A stretch of 39,850 nt of DNA, from contig JALVEW010000056.1 in assembly GCA_027030425.1 (NCBI GenBank), forward strand, positions 1 to 39,850, read 5' to 3'. Position 1 is the first letter of the stretch; every line of letters begins with the position of its first letter. The position numbers were made by a program, and so were the translations under genes. The notes under the pieces are model-generated. The model ran no database searches, had not been told where the DNA came from, and worked only from the letters and a program-made list of their open reading frames with translations. This document shows, piece after piece, positions 315 through 14,201 of this stretch. Source of the stretch: Sedimenticola sp. (GTDB lineage: Bacteria > Pseudomonadota > Gammaproteobacteria > Chromatiales > Chromatiaceae).

Positions 315-386
315 TCGGGGTCGGAGTCAAATCTCCACAGATTGCAGAATACACGTAACATCACCATGATTTGACTCCGACCCCGA
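315..386. repeat. Inverted repeat, 18-bp perfect arms (family a, copy 1)
   Basis: The left arm TCGGGGTCGGAGTCAAAT (315-332) is the exact reverse complement of the right arm at 369-386, with a 36-bp AT-richer loop. The same 16-bp arm core recurs at 14032-14134 around a different loop. Arms of this type are familiar as REP-like elements next to REP-associated tyrosine transposases (Y1_Tnp/RAYT) in gammaproteobacteria, but no such gene is present here, so this link is inference. It may also act as a transcript end for the aconitase gene. Confidence 0.8.
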
Positions 387-428: not shown

Positions 429-1169
429 ATGAATAAGACCCGCTGGGCCAAGCAATTCCAACCCCTGCTGGCAAGCCTCAGGGATTTGCTGCCCGTCATC
501 CTGGTGGTTAGTGCCTTTCAGTTGCTGGTGATTCGGCAGCCCCTGCCCGACCTGGCCAGACTGCTGCTGGGCCTGCTGTTCGTGGTCATTGGCCTGAGCC
601 TGTTCATCAAGGGGCTGGAGATGGGTCTGTTTCCCATCGGCCAGTCCATGGCCCAGTCCTTTGCCCGCAAGGGCAGTCTCCTCTGGCTGCTGCTGTTTGG
701 CTTTGCCCTGGGTTTCGGCACCACCGTGGCGGAGCCAGCCCTCATCGCCATCGCCGACGAAGCCGCCGAAATCGCGGCCGCGGGCCGGTTGATATCAGAC
801 TCCGACCAGGCCAGAGAAAGCTATGCCCGGGGATTGCGCTATACCGTGGCCCTGTCCGTGGGACTGGCCATCGTGCTTGGCGTGATCCGCATCATTCGCG
901 GCTGGCCCATCCACTGGCTCATCGTGGGGGGCTATGTCTGTATCATCGTCATCACCGAATTTGCACCCCGGGAGATCATCGGCATTGCCTATGATTCCGG
1001 CGGCGTGACCACCTCCACCATTACCGTGCCCCTGGTGACGGCCCTGGGCGTGGGCCTGGCCTCGGCCATACGCGGACGCAACCCCATGATCGACGGTTTC
1101 GGTCTTATTGCCCTGGCGTCCCTGACACCCATCATGTTCGTAATGATCTACGGGATGGTCATCCATTGA
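429..1169 (+). CDS. DUF1538 family integral membrane protein, first paralogue
   Basis: This 246-residue protein is very hydrophobic, with about six predicted membrane segments. It matches the DUF1538 family by its two signature stretches: [10 protein letters not shown] (residues 96-105) and DSGGVTTST (189-197), followed by a DGFGLIAL segment. No transport substrate is known to me for this family; the strictly kept polar residues inside hydrophobic stretches (T, E, D, S) look like a transport or ion path, which is inference. I chose ATG 429; a TTG at 396 would add 11 residues but crowds the preceding inverted repeat, and neither start has a good ribosome binding site. The stop codon overlaps the TTG start of the next gene. 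It is the first gene of a four-gene operon with a second DUF1538 protein, a PII-like protein and a CBS-pair protein. Confidence 0.85.
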
Positions 1170-1945
1170 AGGTTCTGGAGGGCTTGTGGCATACCGGCTT
1201 GGGCACCATTGTGGATGTCCTGCCCATCCTGCTCATCATCTTCGGCTTCCAGTTCCTGTATCTCAAGCGCCCTGTGCCCAATCTGAAAAAGGTAGTGGTA
1301 GGGTTTATCTACGTGTTGGCTGGCCTGGCTTTTTTTCTAGAAGGACTGGAACTGGCGCTGTTTCCCCTGGGAAAAACCATGGCCGCGCAGCTTACCGACC
1401 CTGAATTCCTGGGCATCGCTCATCCCCAGAATATCCACTGGTCCGACTACTATTGGGTTTACATCTTTGCCTTTGCCGTGGGCTTTTCCACCACCGTGGC
1501 AGAACCGGCCCTGCTGGCCGTGGCCATCAAGGCCAACGAGGTGTCCGGCGGGGCCATTGGCGTGTGGGGCCTGCGCACCGCCGTGGCTCTGGGCGTGGCC
1601 CTAGGATTGGTGCTGGGCACCTGGCGCATCGTCACAGGCTATCCCCTGCACTGGTTCATTATCGGCGGCTACGCCATTGTGGTGGCACAGACCATTTTCG
1701 CGCCACGCATGATAATCGCCCTGGCCTATGACTCCGGCGGTGTCACCACCTCCACAGTCACCGTGCCCCTGGTGACAGCCCTGGGCTTGGGACTGGCCCA
1801 TCATATTCCCGGCCGCAGCCCCCTCATCGACGGCTTTGGCCTTATCGCCTTTGCCAGCCTGTTCCCCATGATGACCGTCCTGGCCCATGCCCAGATCGCC
1901 CAGTGGCGGGCGGGCCGCCCCTCATCCCTCTCTCAGGAGAACTGA
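1166..1945 (+). CDS. DUF1538 family integral membrane protein, second paralogue
   Basis: This 259-residue membrane protein is clearly paralogous to its upstream neighbour: [10 protein letters not shown] (107-116) and [19 protein letters not shown] (from 189) align with the same motifs there, and the trailing DGFGLIAF segment is also shared. It carries an extra segment (about residues 76-95, [16 protein letters not shown]) that the first paralogue lacks, probably a loop. The start is TTG at 1166, overlapping the upstream TGA, so translation is probably coupled. Two similar half-size proteins encoded back to back suggest a heterodimer that equals a two-repeat transporter-like fold (inference). 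The stop is one base before the ATG of the PII-like gene. Confidence 0.85.
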
Positions 1946-1946
1946 C

Positions 1947-2297
1947 ATGCACTTCAAACTTATTGTCGCCTTTGTCGAGGACCACAAGACCGACGCGGTC
2001 ATGAATGCCGCACGGGAGGCCGGCGCCACCGGCGCCACCATCATCAATAACGCCAGAGGGGAAGGCCTCACCAGCAGCAAGACCTTCTTCGGCCTGTCCC
2101 TGGAAACCCAGCGGGACGTGCTCATGTTTCTGGTGGAGGAGCACATGGCCCGGGAGATCCTGGAAACCATCGCGGAGGTAGGTGAATTCGAAGCCAAGCC
2201 CGGCACCGGCATCGCTTTTCAGATTGACGTGGAGGATGCCGTGGGTATCAGCCAGCAACTGAATGTCCTGAAGGAAAAAGTAAGGGAGGAAGTCTGA
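1947..2297 (+). CDS. PII-like (GlnB-fold) signalling protein
   Basis: This 116-residue protein has the size and outline of a PII family subunit: an N-terminal beta strand (FKLIVAFV), a helix, a loop region at residues 37-53 (ARGEGLTSSKTFFGLSL) where the PII T-loop sits, and a C-terminal KPGTGIAFQIDV stretch (84-95) where classical PII proteins carry the TGKIGDGKIF nucleotide-binding segment. It lacks the classical T-loop tyrosine and uridylylation context, so it is a PII-like protein rather than GlnB/GlnK. The start ATG 1947 has an AGGAGA ribosome binding site seven bases upstream. Its stop overlaps the ATG of the CBS gene (TGATG). The position between two membrane proteins and a CBS protein suggests it gates the membrane pair in response to a small ligand, as GlnK does for AmtB (inference). 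Confidence 0.8.
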   Translation: MHFKLIVAFVEDHKTDAVMNAAREAGATGATIINNARGEGLTSSKTFFGLSLETQRDVLMFLVEEHMAREILETIAEVGEFEAKPGTGIAFQIDVEDAVGISQQLNVLKEKVREEV

Positions 2298-2701
2298 TGA
2301 AAGACCGCAAGCTCATTCGGGTGCGGGAAGTGATGAAAACCCGTTTCGACATGGTCAACGGCATGGCCACGGTGGCGGAAGCCCTGGAGCAGATGAAACA
2401 TGTGGAAACCAAGTCCCTCATCGTGGACAAGCGCACTGACGATGATGAATACGGCATGGTCATGCTTTCGGACATTTCCCGGGAAGTCCTGGCCCTGGAC
2501 CGCTCACCCGAGCGGGTAAACATCTACGAAATCATGAGCAAACCTGTCATCAGTGTAGACCCGGAAATGGATATCCGCTACTGCGCACGGCTGTTCGAGC
2601 GCTTCGGCATCAGCCGCGCGCCGGTGGTGGAAAACAGAAAAGTCATCGGTATCGTGAGCCATACGGACATGGTTTTACATGGCTTGACCCGGCAGGTTTG
2701 A
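2297..2701 (+). CDS. CBS-pair domain protein
   Basis: The 134-residue protein consists of two CBS motifs (about residues 10-65 and 77-131) and nothing else. The first has REVMKTRFDMVNGMATVAEALEQM; the second has YEIMSKPVISVDPEMDIRYCARLF and ends KVIGIVSHTDMV. CBS pairs bind adenine nucleotides or related ligands and regulate attached or partner proteins. Here it is the last gene of the DUF1538-PII operon, overlapping the PII-like stop by one base, so it is probably a second sensory subunit of the same membrane system. A short gap and a minus-strand terminator hairpin follow. Confidence 0.88.
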   Translation: MKDRKLIRVREVMKTRFDMVNGMATVAEALEQMKHVETKSLIVDKRTDDDEYGMVMLSDISREVLALDRSPERVNIYEIMSKPVISVDPEMDIRYCARLFERFGISRAPVVENRKVIGIVSHTDMVLHGLTRQV

Positions 2702-2744: not shown

Positions 2745-2777
2745 AAAAAAAGCGCCTTGAAACACTGTTCAAGGCGC
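2745..2777 (-). terminator. Rho-independent terminator of the multicopper oxidase genes
   Basis: Read on the minus strand, a perfect 10-bp stem (GCGCCTTGAA with TTCAAGGCGC, loop of 6) is followed by seven T residues. It lies just beyond the stop codon of the minus-strand oxidase gene at 2810. The plus-strand side has no T-run, so it serves the minus strand mainly. Confidence 0.85.
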
Positions 2778-2809: not shown

Positions 2810-3871
2810 TTACAATACAGTAATGCGGGTTCGAGCCGTGCCCAAAACCTCTCCGGTCACCCAGTGCAATATATCGGCCGAAATAATGTACTCACCCGGC
2901 TGTGTAGGCTCAAAAATGATGTCGTAACGTTCGGCAGAATGCGCGCGCAACCCTTTGACTTGCACCGGCCTGGGCAAGGCGCGGCCATCAGACATATGGA
3001 TGGTTCCAGTAAGTCCTCCAAAATCAAGCCGCTGAGGATGATATCCAGCGCAGATGTAACGTGCCAGCAGCTTTTCACCCACATTCAACGTTGCCGCGAT
3101 ACCAGGAGCATTCAAGGCGGATTGCGCGCCATCCACGCCAGTAATGATGAAATAATCCGGATTCAGATCATTCAAACCAACATCGGCCCCACAGGTCCCT
3201 GCTGTCCAATCCAGGGTGTGCCAGTACGAATCAATCTCGTCCACTGCCCATATCACCTCCTGATCATAAACCGGGCCACCGGAAAAGAGCGTACCCATCC
3301 CTTCAGGTGGATCAATGATGAGTGCTCCATACATACCCATTTCCGCATGCAGCACGGTGTTTGTATGACAATGGTAAAAATAGGTTCCAGCGTGGCTGGC
3401 CTTCCATTGATAGGTATAAGTACGTGAACTCACATCCCAGGTGATGTGCCCAACGCCATCACTGTATTTGTCTGGCTCGATGCCATGATGATGAATGGTA
3501 TGTGCGCAACACATGGGAACCGACAGATTGGTATGCACTATCTGTCCCTGGTTTACCCGAATCGCTGGTGAAGGGAAACTTCCTCCCATGCCCATGCCCC
3601 CACCACCTTCGGTAAAGCCCCAGATACGAACACTATTGCCATCATCCATGGTCATACTGCCATTCATGTAAATGCCTCGGTCAAAACTGACATCCGCACT
3701 CACCAGGCGTGGATTGGCCTGCTGGTTCTCGTCATATATATAGCAGCCACCTCCCATGCCACCGCCAGAACCACCACCAGACATACCTCCAGAGCCACCC
3801 CCACTGGTGCTTCCGCCCCCAAAACCACCACCACGCCGCATGGCATTTACCGATGTTCTTCTATCTGACAT
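2810..3871 (-). CDS. Multicopper oxidase-like protein with glycine-rich N-terminus, no signal peptide
   Basis: This 353-residue protein has cupredoxin-type copper motifs: HTIHHHG (124-130) and YHCH...LHAEMGM (166-180), the latter offering Cys168, His175 and Met178/180 as a type 1 copper site with a somewhat longer spacing than the textbook HCHxxxHxxxGM. Further cupredoxin sequence follows (residues 190-353). Residues 14-42 are almost only Gly, Ser and Met, an unusual low-complexity leader. There is no visible Sec, Tat or lipoprotein signal although copper oxidases of this kind normally act in the periplasm. It is translated from ATG 3871 with a strong GAGGAGG site, 12 bases after the Tat-bearing partner gene at 3884. 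I infer an oxidase subunit exported together with that partner; substrate unknown. Confidence 0.8.
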   Translation of the reverse strand: MSDRRTSVNAMRRGGGFGGGSTSGGGSGGMSGGGSGGGMGGGCYIYDENQQANPRLVSADVSFDRGIYMNGSMTMDDGNSVRIWGFTEGGGGMGMGGSFPSPAIRVNQGQIVHTNLSVPMCCAHTIHHHGIEPDKYSDGVGHITWDVSSRTYTYQWKASHAGTYFYHCHTNTVLHAEMGMYGALIIDPPEGMGTLFSGGPVYDQEVIWAVDEIDSYWHTLDWTAGTCGADVGLNDLNPDYFIITGVDGAQSALNAPGIAATLNVGEKLLARYICAGYHPQRLDFGGLTGTIHMSDGRALPRPVQVKGLRAHSAERYDIIFEPTQPGEYIISADILHWVTGEVLGTARTRITVL

Positions 3872-3883
3872 TACGCCACCTCC

Positions 3884-4885
3884 TCACTCAAAAAATATAT
3901 CGGTCAATGCGCCGAACATGTAGTAACCGCCCGCCGCTGTCTGGGACATCTCGGAATGCAAATGCATCGGGTATTCACCGACATCTGTCGGTGGCCATGC
4001 ATCCGGCGGCGTCTCGAAAGGATAGATGACATCGAGCGCTCCCTTGTTACCATCAAGATAAAGACAGTCTTTCTTCCACACATCCGCACGAACCTCTCCG
4101 TTCTGGGTAAGCCATTCCATGTGATTGCCGTGCGTGTGGACAGACTGAGAACACATACCTGCATTGAGAATGCGTACAAGCGTTCTGTCTCCCACCTTTC
4201 CATGCAATGCCGTGCGGGGATCATGCATAGCGTCCGTCGCTGGATCCCCGTTTCCAGGCGCGCCAGGTGGCCGCGCCCCTAATCCATTTATGGTGAAAAA
4301 TCTTGGAACATACTCCGTGTTTGGCGTCAATCCTCTGCTCAGGCGATCATGCCATGCGGGATCAATGTCGTGAAAAATCCAGAAATACTGTTGCACGAAA
4401 GTCGGACTGCCTGGATACAATTCATTGTCCGAGCCAGCAGGCATAACGGCCATTCCCCCATGCAGCCCCAGCAGCCGATTATGGGGGGCATCCAAGGCAT
4501 CGTAATACATGTAGGTACCAGGCTTTTCCACGCTGAAACGCACGGTGCGCGTTTGCCCAGGGGCAATACTGCCACTGTCAACAACCCCGTCGATCACAAA
4601 ACTGTGACTGCTGCTCAATGTGTTGACCAATGTTATCTCAACCGTATCACCAGCCTGTACCACAAGGGCTTCTCCCGGGACATCCAGGGAATCACTGCTG
4701 GAACTGAAGCCCCTGAAATAGATGGAAGTCCCATCGATCTGATCGATAAAACCTTCGGTGATGTAGAAAGTCCGCTGGATCAACTCAGCATGGCTGCGCG
4801 CGGACCAACTCAGTAGCCCCAGGCCGCTCAGCATGGTGCTCACACAACCAGCCCCTCCCAATCTCAAAAAATCACGACGTTTCAA
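3884..4885 (-). CDS. Tat-exported multicopper oxidase-like protein lacking the type 1 copper cysteine
   Basis: The 333-residue product starts with a twin-arginine signal (KRRDFLRLGG, then a hydrophobic stretch to about residue 33). The rest has cupredoxin folds: a degenerate first domain (about 55-155, ending HNRLLGLHGGMAVMP) and a second with VHTHGNHMEW and, at the C-terminus, GEYPMHLHSEMSQTAAGG. In active multicopper oxidases that last motif is normally HCH; here Leu309 replaces the cysteine between His308 and His310, so this subunit probably has no type 1 copper. The start is TTG at 4883-4885, set by an AGGAGG nine bases upstream. It is the first gene of the two-gene operon and divergent from a Crp/Fnr-type regulator. 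It may be the export partner of the signal-less neighbour (inference). Confidence 0.8.
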   Translation of the reverse strand: MKRRDFLRLGGAGCVSTMLSGLGLLSWSARSHAELIQRTFYITEGFIDQIDGTSIYFRGFSSSSDSLDVPGEALVVQAGDTVEITLVNTLSSSHSFVIDGVVDSGSIAPGQTRTVRFSVEKPGTYMYYDALDAPHNRLLGLHGGMAVMPAGSDNELYPGSPTFVQQYFWIFHDIDPAWHDRLSRGLTPNTEYVPRFFTINGLGARPPGAPGNGDPATDAMHDPRTALHGKVGDRTLVRILNAGMCSQSVHTHGNHMEWLTQNGEVRADVWKKDCLYLDGNKGALDVIYPFETPPDAWPPTDVGEYPMHLHSEMSQTAAGGYYMFGALTDIFFE

Positions 4886-5193
4886 TGATTGAATCCTCCT
4901 AGTGAAATAGTTTCATGTGTGTTTCCCAGGATATTGTTTTTCCCTACGCCTGATTTCCGTCTTCCCGACACAGGATCACTATACTGAGTCCGGATCACCT
5001 GCCTCAGTGACCCGAATTACGTGCGGACGGTGACCTTGATTACACGGGCTGCGTGACTAAAGTCACACTGGGACAATCCGCGTCACTTTATCTCCCAACG
5101 GAATTCGTTATACTTATCTGCAAAATATAGAGCTGGCCCAAACCAGCCGGGGGATTGGTTTCGGCGATTGAATCGAGGAACCACATCAAAGCA
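4886..5193. promoter_or_regulatory. Divergent control region between oxidase genes and Crp/Fnr regulator
   Basis: This 308-bp gap holds no gene. It carries a palindrome GTGACTAAAGTCAC at 5053-5066 and several further GTGAC or GTCAC half-sites (about 5007, 5030, 5082), plus a lone FNR-like TTGAT at about 5035. A TATACT at 5109-5114 could be the -10 of the regulator gene with no good -35, as expected for an activated promoter; a minus-strand TATAGT (4978-4983) could serve the oxidase genes. The regulator next door is the natural candidate to bind the palindrome. These are pattern calls only. Confidence 0.5.
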
Positions 5194-5958
5194 ATGCTCG
5201 GGATTTCGGGCAACACTTGCACCAGAATTGACATTGATTTCATGAATCATTCAACAGACGACGCTGCTGTCTGCAGGAGACTGTCACCAGGCGTTCAAAT
5301 GCTGTTCCGCGCCTACCCGGAACTGAAACAACCCAATAATCTGCCCTGGGTGGAGTTGCTGGAACGGGCGACACTCATCGATCTCCCGCCACAAAACATC
5401 CTTGTTCGCCAGGGAAGCCATTGCAACAATTTCCTGTTCCTTCTGGATGGCACCGTGCGGGTTTACCAGATGGCCGAAGACGGGCGTGAACTGACCCTTT
5501 ATCGGATCAATCCAGGCGATGTATGTCTGATGAGTCTGAGCAGCCTGTTGAATGACAAGCCTTTCAAGGCAAATGCCAGAACAGACACACCCATCAAGGC
5601 ACTCGTGCTTGGCGTCCGGGATTTCCATCTGGCCATGAAGGTCAGCGACAATTTCCGCAACCAGGTTTTGCGCAGTCTTGTAAACAGCGTGTGTGAAATC
5701 ATGCACAGTTTCTACGATACGGCATTCGAGCCCCTGGAACTGCGTCTTGCCTGCCTGCTTGGACAAATGTTCGAACGCACCCATTCCAATACCCTGGACG
5801 TTACTCACCAACAACTGGCCATGGAGCTGGGCACCTCACGGGAAGTGATCAGCCGAATACTCAAACGGCTGGAAAATCAGCAATGTATTACCCTTTCCAG
5901 GGCTCAAATCAAGGTTGGCCCATCGCAAACACTTCCTTGGCAATCGTCACGTACATGA
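5194..5958 (+). CDS. Crp/Fnr family transcriptional regulator
   Basis: The protein has an N-terminal cyclic-nucleotide-binding-type beta roll (QNILVRQGSHCNNFLFLLDGTVRVYQMAEDGRELTLYRINPGDVCLMSLSSLL), a dimerisation helix, and a C-terminal winged helix with the recognition segment THQQLAMELGTSREVISRILKRLE (about residues 203-226). It lacks the N-terminal cysteine cluster of FNR, so an iron-sulfur sensor is unlikely; the ligand is unknown. Three starts are possible: TTG 5155, ATG 5194 (GAGGAA 13 bases upstream) and ATG 5242; I show 5194, which gives 254 residues. It is transcribed away from the copper oxidase pair and probably controls it or itself through the palindrome at 5053-5066. Confidence 0.85.
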   Translation: MLGISGNTCTRIDIDFMNHSTDDAAVCRRLSPGVQMLFRAYPELKQPNNLPWVELLERATLIDLPPQNILVRQGSHCNNFLFLLDGTVRVYQMAEDGRELTLYRINPGDVCLMSLSSLLNDKPFKANARTDTPIKALVLGVRDFHLAMKVSDNFRNQVLRSLVNSVCEIMHSFYDTAFEPLELRLACLLGQMFERTHSNTLDVTHQQLAMELGTSREVISRILKRLENQQCITLSRAQIKVGPSQTLPWQSSRT

Positions 5959-13961: not shown

Positions 13962-14201
13962 CCCGAACATTTCACCCGGCCGCTTAAATAATATTCTAGC
14001 TTATTGTATTTCACGAAGAATTTTGATGGGCGGGGTCGGAGTCAAATGGGGAGGATGTTGGAAAGATCCCATGGCCATGGAACAGTTTGATCCTGTTCAT
14101 TGTAACAGTTTGGGTGGAATTTGACTCCGACCCCCATTACAAATCCGCACCTGAACGCCGATCCCGGCACGATCATCGCGTTCCCGGGTGAAATATTCGG
14201 G
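13962..14201. mobile_element. MITE-like element with CCCGAA(T/C)ATTTCACCCGG ends (family b, copy 1)
   Basis: The left end CCCGAACATTTCACCCGG (13962-13979) is inverted relative to the right end (14185-14201), which reads CCCGAATATTTCACCCG on the minus strand. The left about 65 bp resembles 37441-37505, and the right about 62 bp (14138-14199, minus strand) is almost identical, with 2 mismatches, to 37553-37614. There is no transposase inside, only a nested inverted repeat (14032-14134). It is best read as an internally deleted insertion sequence or MITE; the parent family cannot be named from the ends alone. Confidence 0.72.
14032..14134. repeat. Inverted repeat, 16-bp perfect arms (family a, copy 2), nested in the MITE
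   Basis: GGGGTCGGAGTCAAAT (14032-14047) and its exact reverse complement (14119-14134) flank a 71-bp loop unrelated to the loop of the copy at 315-386. It splits the family b element into its two ends, so it arrived later. Confidence 0.8.

Follow-up and report, generated by a model that had tools for sequence, protein, structure and literature searches.

We analysed a stretch of 39,850 nucleotides (the window) from Sedimenticola sp. (GenBank assembly GCA_027030425.1, contig JALVEW010000056.1, positions 1 to 39,850), near the start of which two DUF1538 membrane proteins are encoded together with a PII-family protein and a stand-alone pair of CBS domains. The linkage of this PII to DUF1538 is near-universal in the sampled genomes, and it holds in both directions. 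The membrane pair is already known as an antiporter type, that of UmpA and UmpB, and the new part is its link to the sensors. By analogy with GlnK-AmtB and SbtB-SbtA, it is reasonably likely that the PII and CBS proteins form a dedicated, non-classical module that throttles UmpAB. The four genes, which are tightly packed on the plus strand between positions 429 and 2701, are the following.

429..1169, plus strand: umpA-like gene, DUF1538 membrane protein of 246 residues (ATG at 429, stop at 1167-1169; PF07556, NF041627)
1166..1945, plus strand: umpB-like gene, DUF1538 membrane protein of 259 residues (TTG at 1166, stop at 1943-1945; PF07556, NF041628)
1947..2297, plus strand: PII-family protein of 116 residues (ATG at 1947, stop at 2295-2297; PF00543 and alignment)
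2297..2701, plus strand: stand-alone CBS domain pair of 134 residues (ATG at 2297, stop at 2699-2701; PF00571)

This arrangement had been described in an earlier note made from the letters of the same DNA; it is borne out by the coordinates and the Pfam scores, as are the overlapping or one-base junctions. The TTG start of umpB overlaps the umpA stop in the four bases TTGA, a single base separates umpB from the PII gene, and the PII and CBS genes overlap by one base. With the Pfam gathering cut-off for DUF1538 (PF07556) at 22.6 bits, the umpA-like and umpB-like products score 239.7 and 228 bits, respectively. The PII protein scores 48.3 bits for P-II (PF00543, cut-off 25), and the last protein 71 bits in two stretches for CBS (PF00571, cut-off 24), so that two CBS domains lie over the cut-off. 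The segments that the note saw recurring in both membrane proteins are present in the translations as two 11-residue motifs per protein; the E-P of the T-x-A-E-P motif and the D and third-position G of the D-S-G-G-V motif show little or no variation across 46 fused relatives. Chance adjacency of the four genes was ruled out, the same order being found again in most relatives. The genome is of 2.84 Mb in 278 contigs and 99.5% complete, and the nearest titled relative of the PII protein, in a Sedimenticola metagenome-assembled genome, is identical in 116 of 116 residues.

The membrane pair, which the note had called uncharacterised, matches a known system. Among the NCBIfam models, UmpA (NF041627) and UmpB (NF041628) are the best for the two window proteins, in the correct order, and UmpAB of Halomonas zhaodongensis was described in 2017 as a two-component Na+(Li+,K+)/H+ antiporter (PMC5484666). 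According to the available text of that paper, UmpA and UmpB co-immunoprecipitate as a heterodimer, and the pair gives an antiporter-less E. coli back its tolerance of salt and alkali, with antiport activity obtained from umpA and umpB alone, without PII or CBS (PMC5484666). On the 4.2-kb Halomonas clone umpA and umpB are numbered as the last two open reading frames (ORFs), and therefore the gene after umpB was presumably left uncloned. Neither PII nor CBS occurs in the main text of the UmpAB paper. PII beside DUF1538 was not found in the main texts of the literature naming DUF1538, where the lone occurrence of PII (PMC7221264) lies inside a sequence motif, and among the papers listed there was none in which "P-II" or "P-II family nitrogen regulator" appears together with "DUF1538". 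In cable bacteria UmpAB has been named as a salt adaptation, in texts whose available parts contain no PII (PMC12093952, PMC10030654). Text matches to "P-II" in the available parts of PMC4475827, PMC9062515 and PMC10634514 are unrelated to this PII and were set aside.

The association was followed through 276 genomes of the window's class, 90 of which (about a third) carry DUF1538, and through 299 genomes of the phylum, of which 82 carry DUF1538 and 61 of these lie outside the class. DUF1538 was found in none of 14 control genomes. The 97 stretches fetched from the class and the window's own locus make up 98 class loci, which were scored with profiles derived from such loci; genes on a common strand with gaps of at most 1.6 kb were taken as one cluster. 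Tiny DUF1538 fragments were left out of the fetched loci (for example G084:C4, G364:C330, G347:C21 and G382:C73; such handles are our own labels), 12 of the phylum sample's 21 same-class genomes were left unfetched, and seven extra same-class loci (L288-L294), all seven with PII and CBS, were excluded from the counts of 90 and 61 genomes. A PII gene lies in the DUF1538 cluster in 145 of the 151 genomes (88 of 90 in the class and 57 of 61 in the same phylum outside it). The note had named a lack of association between DUF1538 and PII genes in other genomes as grounds for giving up its proposal; since PII is the constant companion of DUF1538, the proposal stands as regards PII. The gap between umpB and PII in 101 four-gene loci has a median of about 11 bases and is at most 60 in 94 of them, the starts being approximate. 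PII also follows DUF1538 in all six plasmid records examined, from nine matched, with a fused DUF1538 protein and then a two-domain PII in Bacillota, and two DUF1538 genes and then PII in Alphaproteobacteria.

Six genomes are exceptions. Two are cut by contig ends: in G175 the contig stops 178 bases past umpB, and PII and CBS lie 330 bases from the end of another contig, and in G382 the contig is cut after 142 bases, and a second contig has a DUF1538 fragment with a PII match next to it. The other four keep this PII away from DUF1538. In G030 the contig stops 227 bases past umpB; as PII and CBS stand on another contig behind an unrelated opposite-strand gene and without DUF1538, the two parts are probably unlinked there. 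G349, G378 and G400, all of family f201, have no adjoining PII and encode the same PII subfamily elsewhere (E about 1e-51); G400 shows just a DUF1538 fragment, at a contig end. Where linkage is lost the partner is thus still kept, which speaks for a link in function and not just for neighbours being inherited together.

The converse was examined with a profile of 41 proteins of the PII subfamily at a threshold of E <=1e-22. The subfamily occurs in 78 of the 276 class genomes, 76 of the 90 with DUF1538 versus 2 of the 186 without (Fisher p about 1e-50, kinship among genomes being uncorrected). In one of these two the PII gene lies 99 bases from a contig end, and in the other PII and CBS stand behind a remnant of umpB. 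In each of the 14 DUF1538 genomes that this strict profile misses, the cluster contains PII of another subtype. Among 80 PII relatives kept of 118 found, CBS adjoins in all 80 and both DUF1538 genes are present in 78, a few with split frames; the last two, one with the end of umpB and one starting at PII, are both at a contig end. Besides this PII gene, the window genome has four other PII matches. Judged by score, three are classical, and two of the three are identical in the compared stretch. Isolated PII genes of the subfamily, with no DUF1538 nearby, were observed at 5461-5877 of L310 and 5741-6073 of L309, the latter with an in-frame stop; both genomes also have a complete set.

These counts bear on the possibility that signalling runs the other way, with UmpAB mainly a sensor or anchor. 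PII and CBS would then be sequestered at the membrane or released from it according to the Na+/H+ state, and their target would be some other protein, for instance an enzyme or a transporter. The four genomes that keep PII away from DUF1538 show that co-transcription is not essential, and a title on the membrane sequestration of GlnK by AmtB stands among the references of PMC10710835. However, a subfamily found without DUF1538 in just two of 186 class genomes is unlikely to have a UmpAB-independent target as its main job, and we regard such reverse signalling as improbable.

The second regulatory gene varies. CBS is present in 81 of the 98 class loci. Of the others, 11 have at least two PII domains, 3 a single PII and 3 no PII; the corresponding numbers for the 74 loci outside the class are 29, 23, 17 and 5. 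CBS was rejected as a constant partner. The association proposed in the earlier note is thus only partly borne out for CBS; the four-gene order recurs in most relatives, with PII constant and CBS replaceable. CBS and a second PII occur together in one of 184 clusters scored (L291, a composite of two neighbouring systems); L053 and L079, outside the set of 184, are composites as well. In these two loci, of Marinospirillum and Nitrincola (L053 7855-10519 and L079 4063-9043), a second, fused DUF1538 system lies beside the first, each system having its own PII and CBS, with an extra PII. Locus L188, with broken DUF1538 frames followed by PII and CBS matches, is apparently a decaying second copy.

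The DUF1538 pair itself is encoded either by two genes or by one fused gene. In L155, L162, L183 and L201 the neighbour of a fused DUF1538 protein is a single chain with two PII matches. Its C-terminal part also matches PII in a profile comparison of the four sequences (probability 94.3 over 95 columns), with single-sequence scores between 2.8e-5 and 0.32, and is apparently a third PII domain. A chain of three such domains would match the trimeric state of PII. In these divergent proteins one stretch each of L162 and L201 scores above the Pfam cut-off of 25, and L155 remains below it (20.2). Where two PII proteins were checked, the first passes the same cut-off (31.3 in L216, 35.3 in L112) and the second does not (18.1 in L228, and no score for the second of L112). 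In Salinivibrio proteolyticus (L042, one assembly) UmpB and PII form a single reading frame.

The window PII differs from the GlnB/GlnK-type proteins of its own genome, with GEGLT in place of GFGRQ, GTGI in place of GDGK and GIS in place of RIR. Its T-loop is about five residues shorter and has no tyrosine in residues 36-58, the alignment near the T-loop being uncertain by one residue. The places of GFGRQ, the T-loop tyrosine, GDGK and RIR are those that we take to hold the ATP, 2-oxoglutarate and uridylylation residues of classical GlnB/GlnK, and this classical set is absent from the window protein. In every one of 41 relatives the place of R38 holds L, I, M or V, that of K90 holds I, V or M and that of R101 holds G, and the T-loop tyrosine is missing from all of them. 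The description of PII as a nucleotide-type sensor, given in the earlier note, is therefore doubtful. The T-loop has its own conserved motif, KTFFGL, in which F47, G49 and L50 are found in all 41 rows, and E64, H66, D97 and Q104 are among the further invariant positions of this alignment. Against solved chains, the PII profile gave no match at E <=0.001; a solved PII chain, 9p1x_H, came up at E 0.15.

For the CBS protein, the nearest solved chain by sequence is CBS-CP12 (5nmu). In an alignment of 217 rows, residues were counted on the 191 rows that represent CBS proteins of four-gene loci, and G53 (191), D59 (183), Y77 (188) and K82 (190) are strongly conserved. S/T-x-x-D is presumably the adenosine-nucleotide motif of CBS domains. 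The second domain of the window protein has SHTD at this place, with S121 in 137 and D124 in 112 of the 191 rows, and the first domain lacks the S/T. Nucleotide binding by the CBS protein is possible, judging from its sequence, because these positions and much of the S-x-x-D of the second domain are kept.

The residues of PII also bear on whether the true substrate of DUF1538 pairs belongs to carbon or nitrogen metabolism (bicarbonate or ammonium, say), with antiport as a side activity and PII control of the ordinary kind. Against this, the PII protein has lost residues that we take to be 2-oxoglutarate and ATP contacts, and the named hosts of its relatives include Salinivibrio, Colwellia, Moritella, Neptunomonas and Marinospirillum, presumably marine or halophilic. 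Antiport of Na+, Li+ and K+ was, moreover, assayed with UmpAB (PMC5484666). In favour of such a substrate, the PII-controlled systems named in the available part of a 2023 review (AmtB, Amt1, NrtABCD, UrtABCDE and SbtA) include no cation/proton antiporter (PMC10710835). On balance we give this explanation only a small chance.

The near-obligate linkage and the loss of the classical ligand residues would both also be expected if PII and CBS carried no signal and served the antiporter as structural subunits or in its assembly. Against this stand the activity of UmpAB in E. coli in their absence, the exchange of CBS for a second PII, and the retention of part of the S-x-x-D nucleotide motif in most CBS members (the S121 and D124 counts above). 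A purely structural role appears the least probable of the alternatives considered.

The orientation of the membrane pair was examined through the charges of its loops, in 234 UmpA and 233 UmpB relatives plus the window's own proteins; many of these are close kin, some are the same gene twice, and the loop borders were set by hand. From the N- to the C-terminus, the charges are +1.2, -0.4, +0.1, -0.9, +1.9, -1.7, +0.7 and 0.0 for UmpA, and -0.7, +3.4, -3.1, +0.5, +0.7, +1.1, -0.3 and +1.3 for UmpB. The positive-inside rule is an established basis for orienting membrane proteins. Because the charges alternate in the opposite sense in the two proteins, UmpA is predicted to be N-in/C-out and UmpB N-out/C-in, the two thus having opposite orientations, with the C-terminus of UmpB in the cytoplasm. 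Loop 4-5 of UmpB (+0.7) runs counter to the predicted orientation. The linker between UmpA and UmpB in natural fusions is acidic, which fits an outside location, so that these fusions agree with the predicted topology; the UmpB-PII fusion, which would place PII in the cytoplasm, fits it as well.

AlphaFold2 models were obtained for the natural UmpA-UmpB fusion of L169 (46 rows; pLDDT 87.8, pTM 0.88) and for the window UmpB alone (pLDDT 92.6). Both models have helix breaks at the E of T-x-A-E-P and immediately past D-S-G-G-V, which would place a conserved acidic residue at or near each break, as ion sites would have. A Foldseek search gave no match at E <=0.001 for either model. In VIA-align the best rows are middling and unspecific, the top one being a cytochrome oxidase (Z 8.3 over 103 residues). 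The Na+/Ca2+ exchanger NCX_Mj aligns with the fused pair at Z 6.9 (5.8 angstrom rmsd, 179 residues) and with UmpB alone at Z 3.7, and is at most a lead. Going by these models and the matches listed, no solved structure is clearly related to the DUF1538 pair. A tree was built from 108 DUF1538 domains. In its main branch the A types group apart from the B types (support 0.98 and 0.93), and some fused forms are nested among the unfused. Taken as a whole, the tree does not divide cleanly into A and B, as even the best split leaves 22 of 108 leaves misplaced. An alignment that mixed fused subunits with single ones was left out, as UmpA rows seemed to land on the UmpB half.

Taken together, the operon would encode a two-subunit monovalent-cation/proton antiporter, formed by UmpA and UmpB in opposite orientations, and two dedicated cytoplasmic regulators. 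UmpAB would expel Na+ or K+ in exchange for protons. PII, presumably a trimer, would use its short conserved T-loop to dock on UmpAB from the cytoplasmic side; such docking is suggested by the conserved aromatic T-loop and by the cytoplasmic C-terminus predicted for UmpB, whose gene lies next to that of PII. Docked PII would restrain or lock transport, and the CBS pair, or the second PII in other branches, would provide a second input that loosens or tightens the restraint. The docking itself, its inhibitory effect and the identity of the ligands are our inferences. As the Halomonas pair is active alone in E. coli, PII and CBS should tune the antiporter rather than be required by it, and the system would work like a PII-gated transporter.

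Several points weigh against a PII- and CBS-throttled UmpAB. The same activity in E. coli means that the regulators are unneeded for transport as such. With its classical ligand residues lost, the PII protein may sense nothing classical, and no interaction, ligand or flux data on these PII and CBS proteins were found. The window proteins do not reach the curated equivalog cut-offs of NCBIfam, scoring 378.8 bits against 490 for UmpA (NF041627) and 341.8 against 500 for UmpB (NF041628). None of the 276 class genomes reaches the UmpA cut-off; it is therefore very narrow, and with no genome above it the Halomonas locus is not singled out either. No PII is in reach in 3 of the 98 class loci and 5 of the 74 outside the class. 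Among these loci are L134, which consists of a lone umpA, and L257, which is a second DUF1538 pair. Neither lies at a contig end; this PII type is present on another contig of the L257 genome. CBS is missing from 17 of the 98 class loci and from 45 of the 74 outside, some of them cut by contig ends.

The control of nitrogen and carbon uptake is the textbook role of PII proteins. If the proposed throttling of UmpAB is true, salt and pH homeostasis would be placed under PII control, and a PII branch nearly one-to-one with Na+/H+ antiporters would widen such control to ion and pH homeostasis. It would also explain a large set of proteins currently labelled "nitrogen regulator", and it would offer a compact test system of two membrane chains, one PII and one CBS. 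More tentatively, the whole PII branch tied to DUF1538 pairs, in about a third of the sampled class genomes, may be the dedicated gate of cation/proton antiporters of inverted topology. Its rebuilt site would then read a ligand other than ATP or 2-oxoglutarate, the single chain of three PII domains in one branch would be the covalent equivalent of the trimer, and its second regulatory slot would be taken interchangeably by PII or by a CBS pair.

Two further features flank the operon.

2752..2777, minus strand: terminator-like hairpin behind the operon, possibly serving the convergent ORF 2810-3871; a weak call (2 sites versus 2.2 expected in shuffles)
317..384, no strand: inverted pair of the dispersed repeat GGGGTCGGAGTCAAAT, just upstream of umpA and outside the system proper

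The repeat is palindromic and REP- or MITE-like, and is found in the window at 317-384 and 14032-14134. Exact copies number 138 plus 138 across the genome, against none for the reversed control; many among the matches listed sit as inverted pairs, about 52 or 86 bases apart. On the minus strand, two convergent ORFs at 2810-4885 (353 and 333 residues) are of multicopper oxidase type by appearance, the first with a Gly/Ser-rich N-terminus, and an ORF at 5155-5958 resembles a CRP/FNR-type regulator.

The closest known system is UmpAB of Halomonas zhaodongensis, which likewise consists of paired homologous DUF1538 genes with overlapping ends and seven predicted spans in each product, a number that comes here from the models of the natural fusion and of the window UmpB. 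It differs in that the main text of its paper mentions neither PII nor CBS, and the window pair lies under the equivalog cut-offs. Measured antiport is known to us only for the Halomonas pair. Carriers of ammonium, nitrate/nitrite, urea and bicarbonate are under PII control according to the 2023 review (PMC10710835). The window system is similar to GlnK-AmtB in the linkage of a PII gene, of the PII family by Pfam, to its membrane partner (here in 145 of 151 genomes). The membrane protein and substrate are different, however, and compared with the GlnB/GlnK-type proteins of the same genome the window T-loop is shorter by about five residues and lacks the tyrosine, with the presumed ATP and 2-oxoglutarate contacts replaced. 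With SbtB-SbtA, the bicarbonate system, it would share a dedicated PII-like protein for an ion-coupled transporter (PMC10710835), although the transporter family differs and the search of solved chains with the window-type PII profile came up empty at E <=0.001. In MgtE and other CBS-pair transporters the CBS pair is likewise the regulatory input (PMC10710835); here, in contrast, it is a separate protein, which in other branches is swapped for a second PII.

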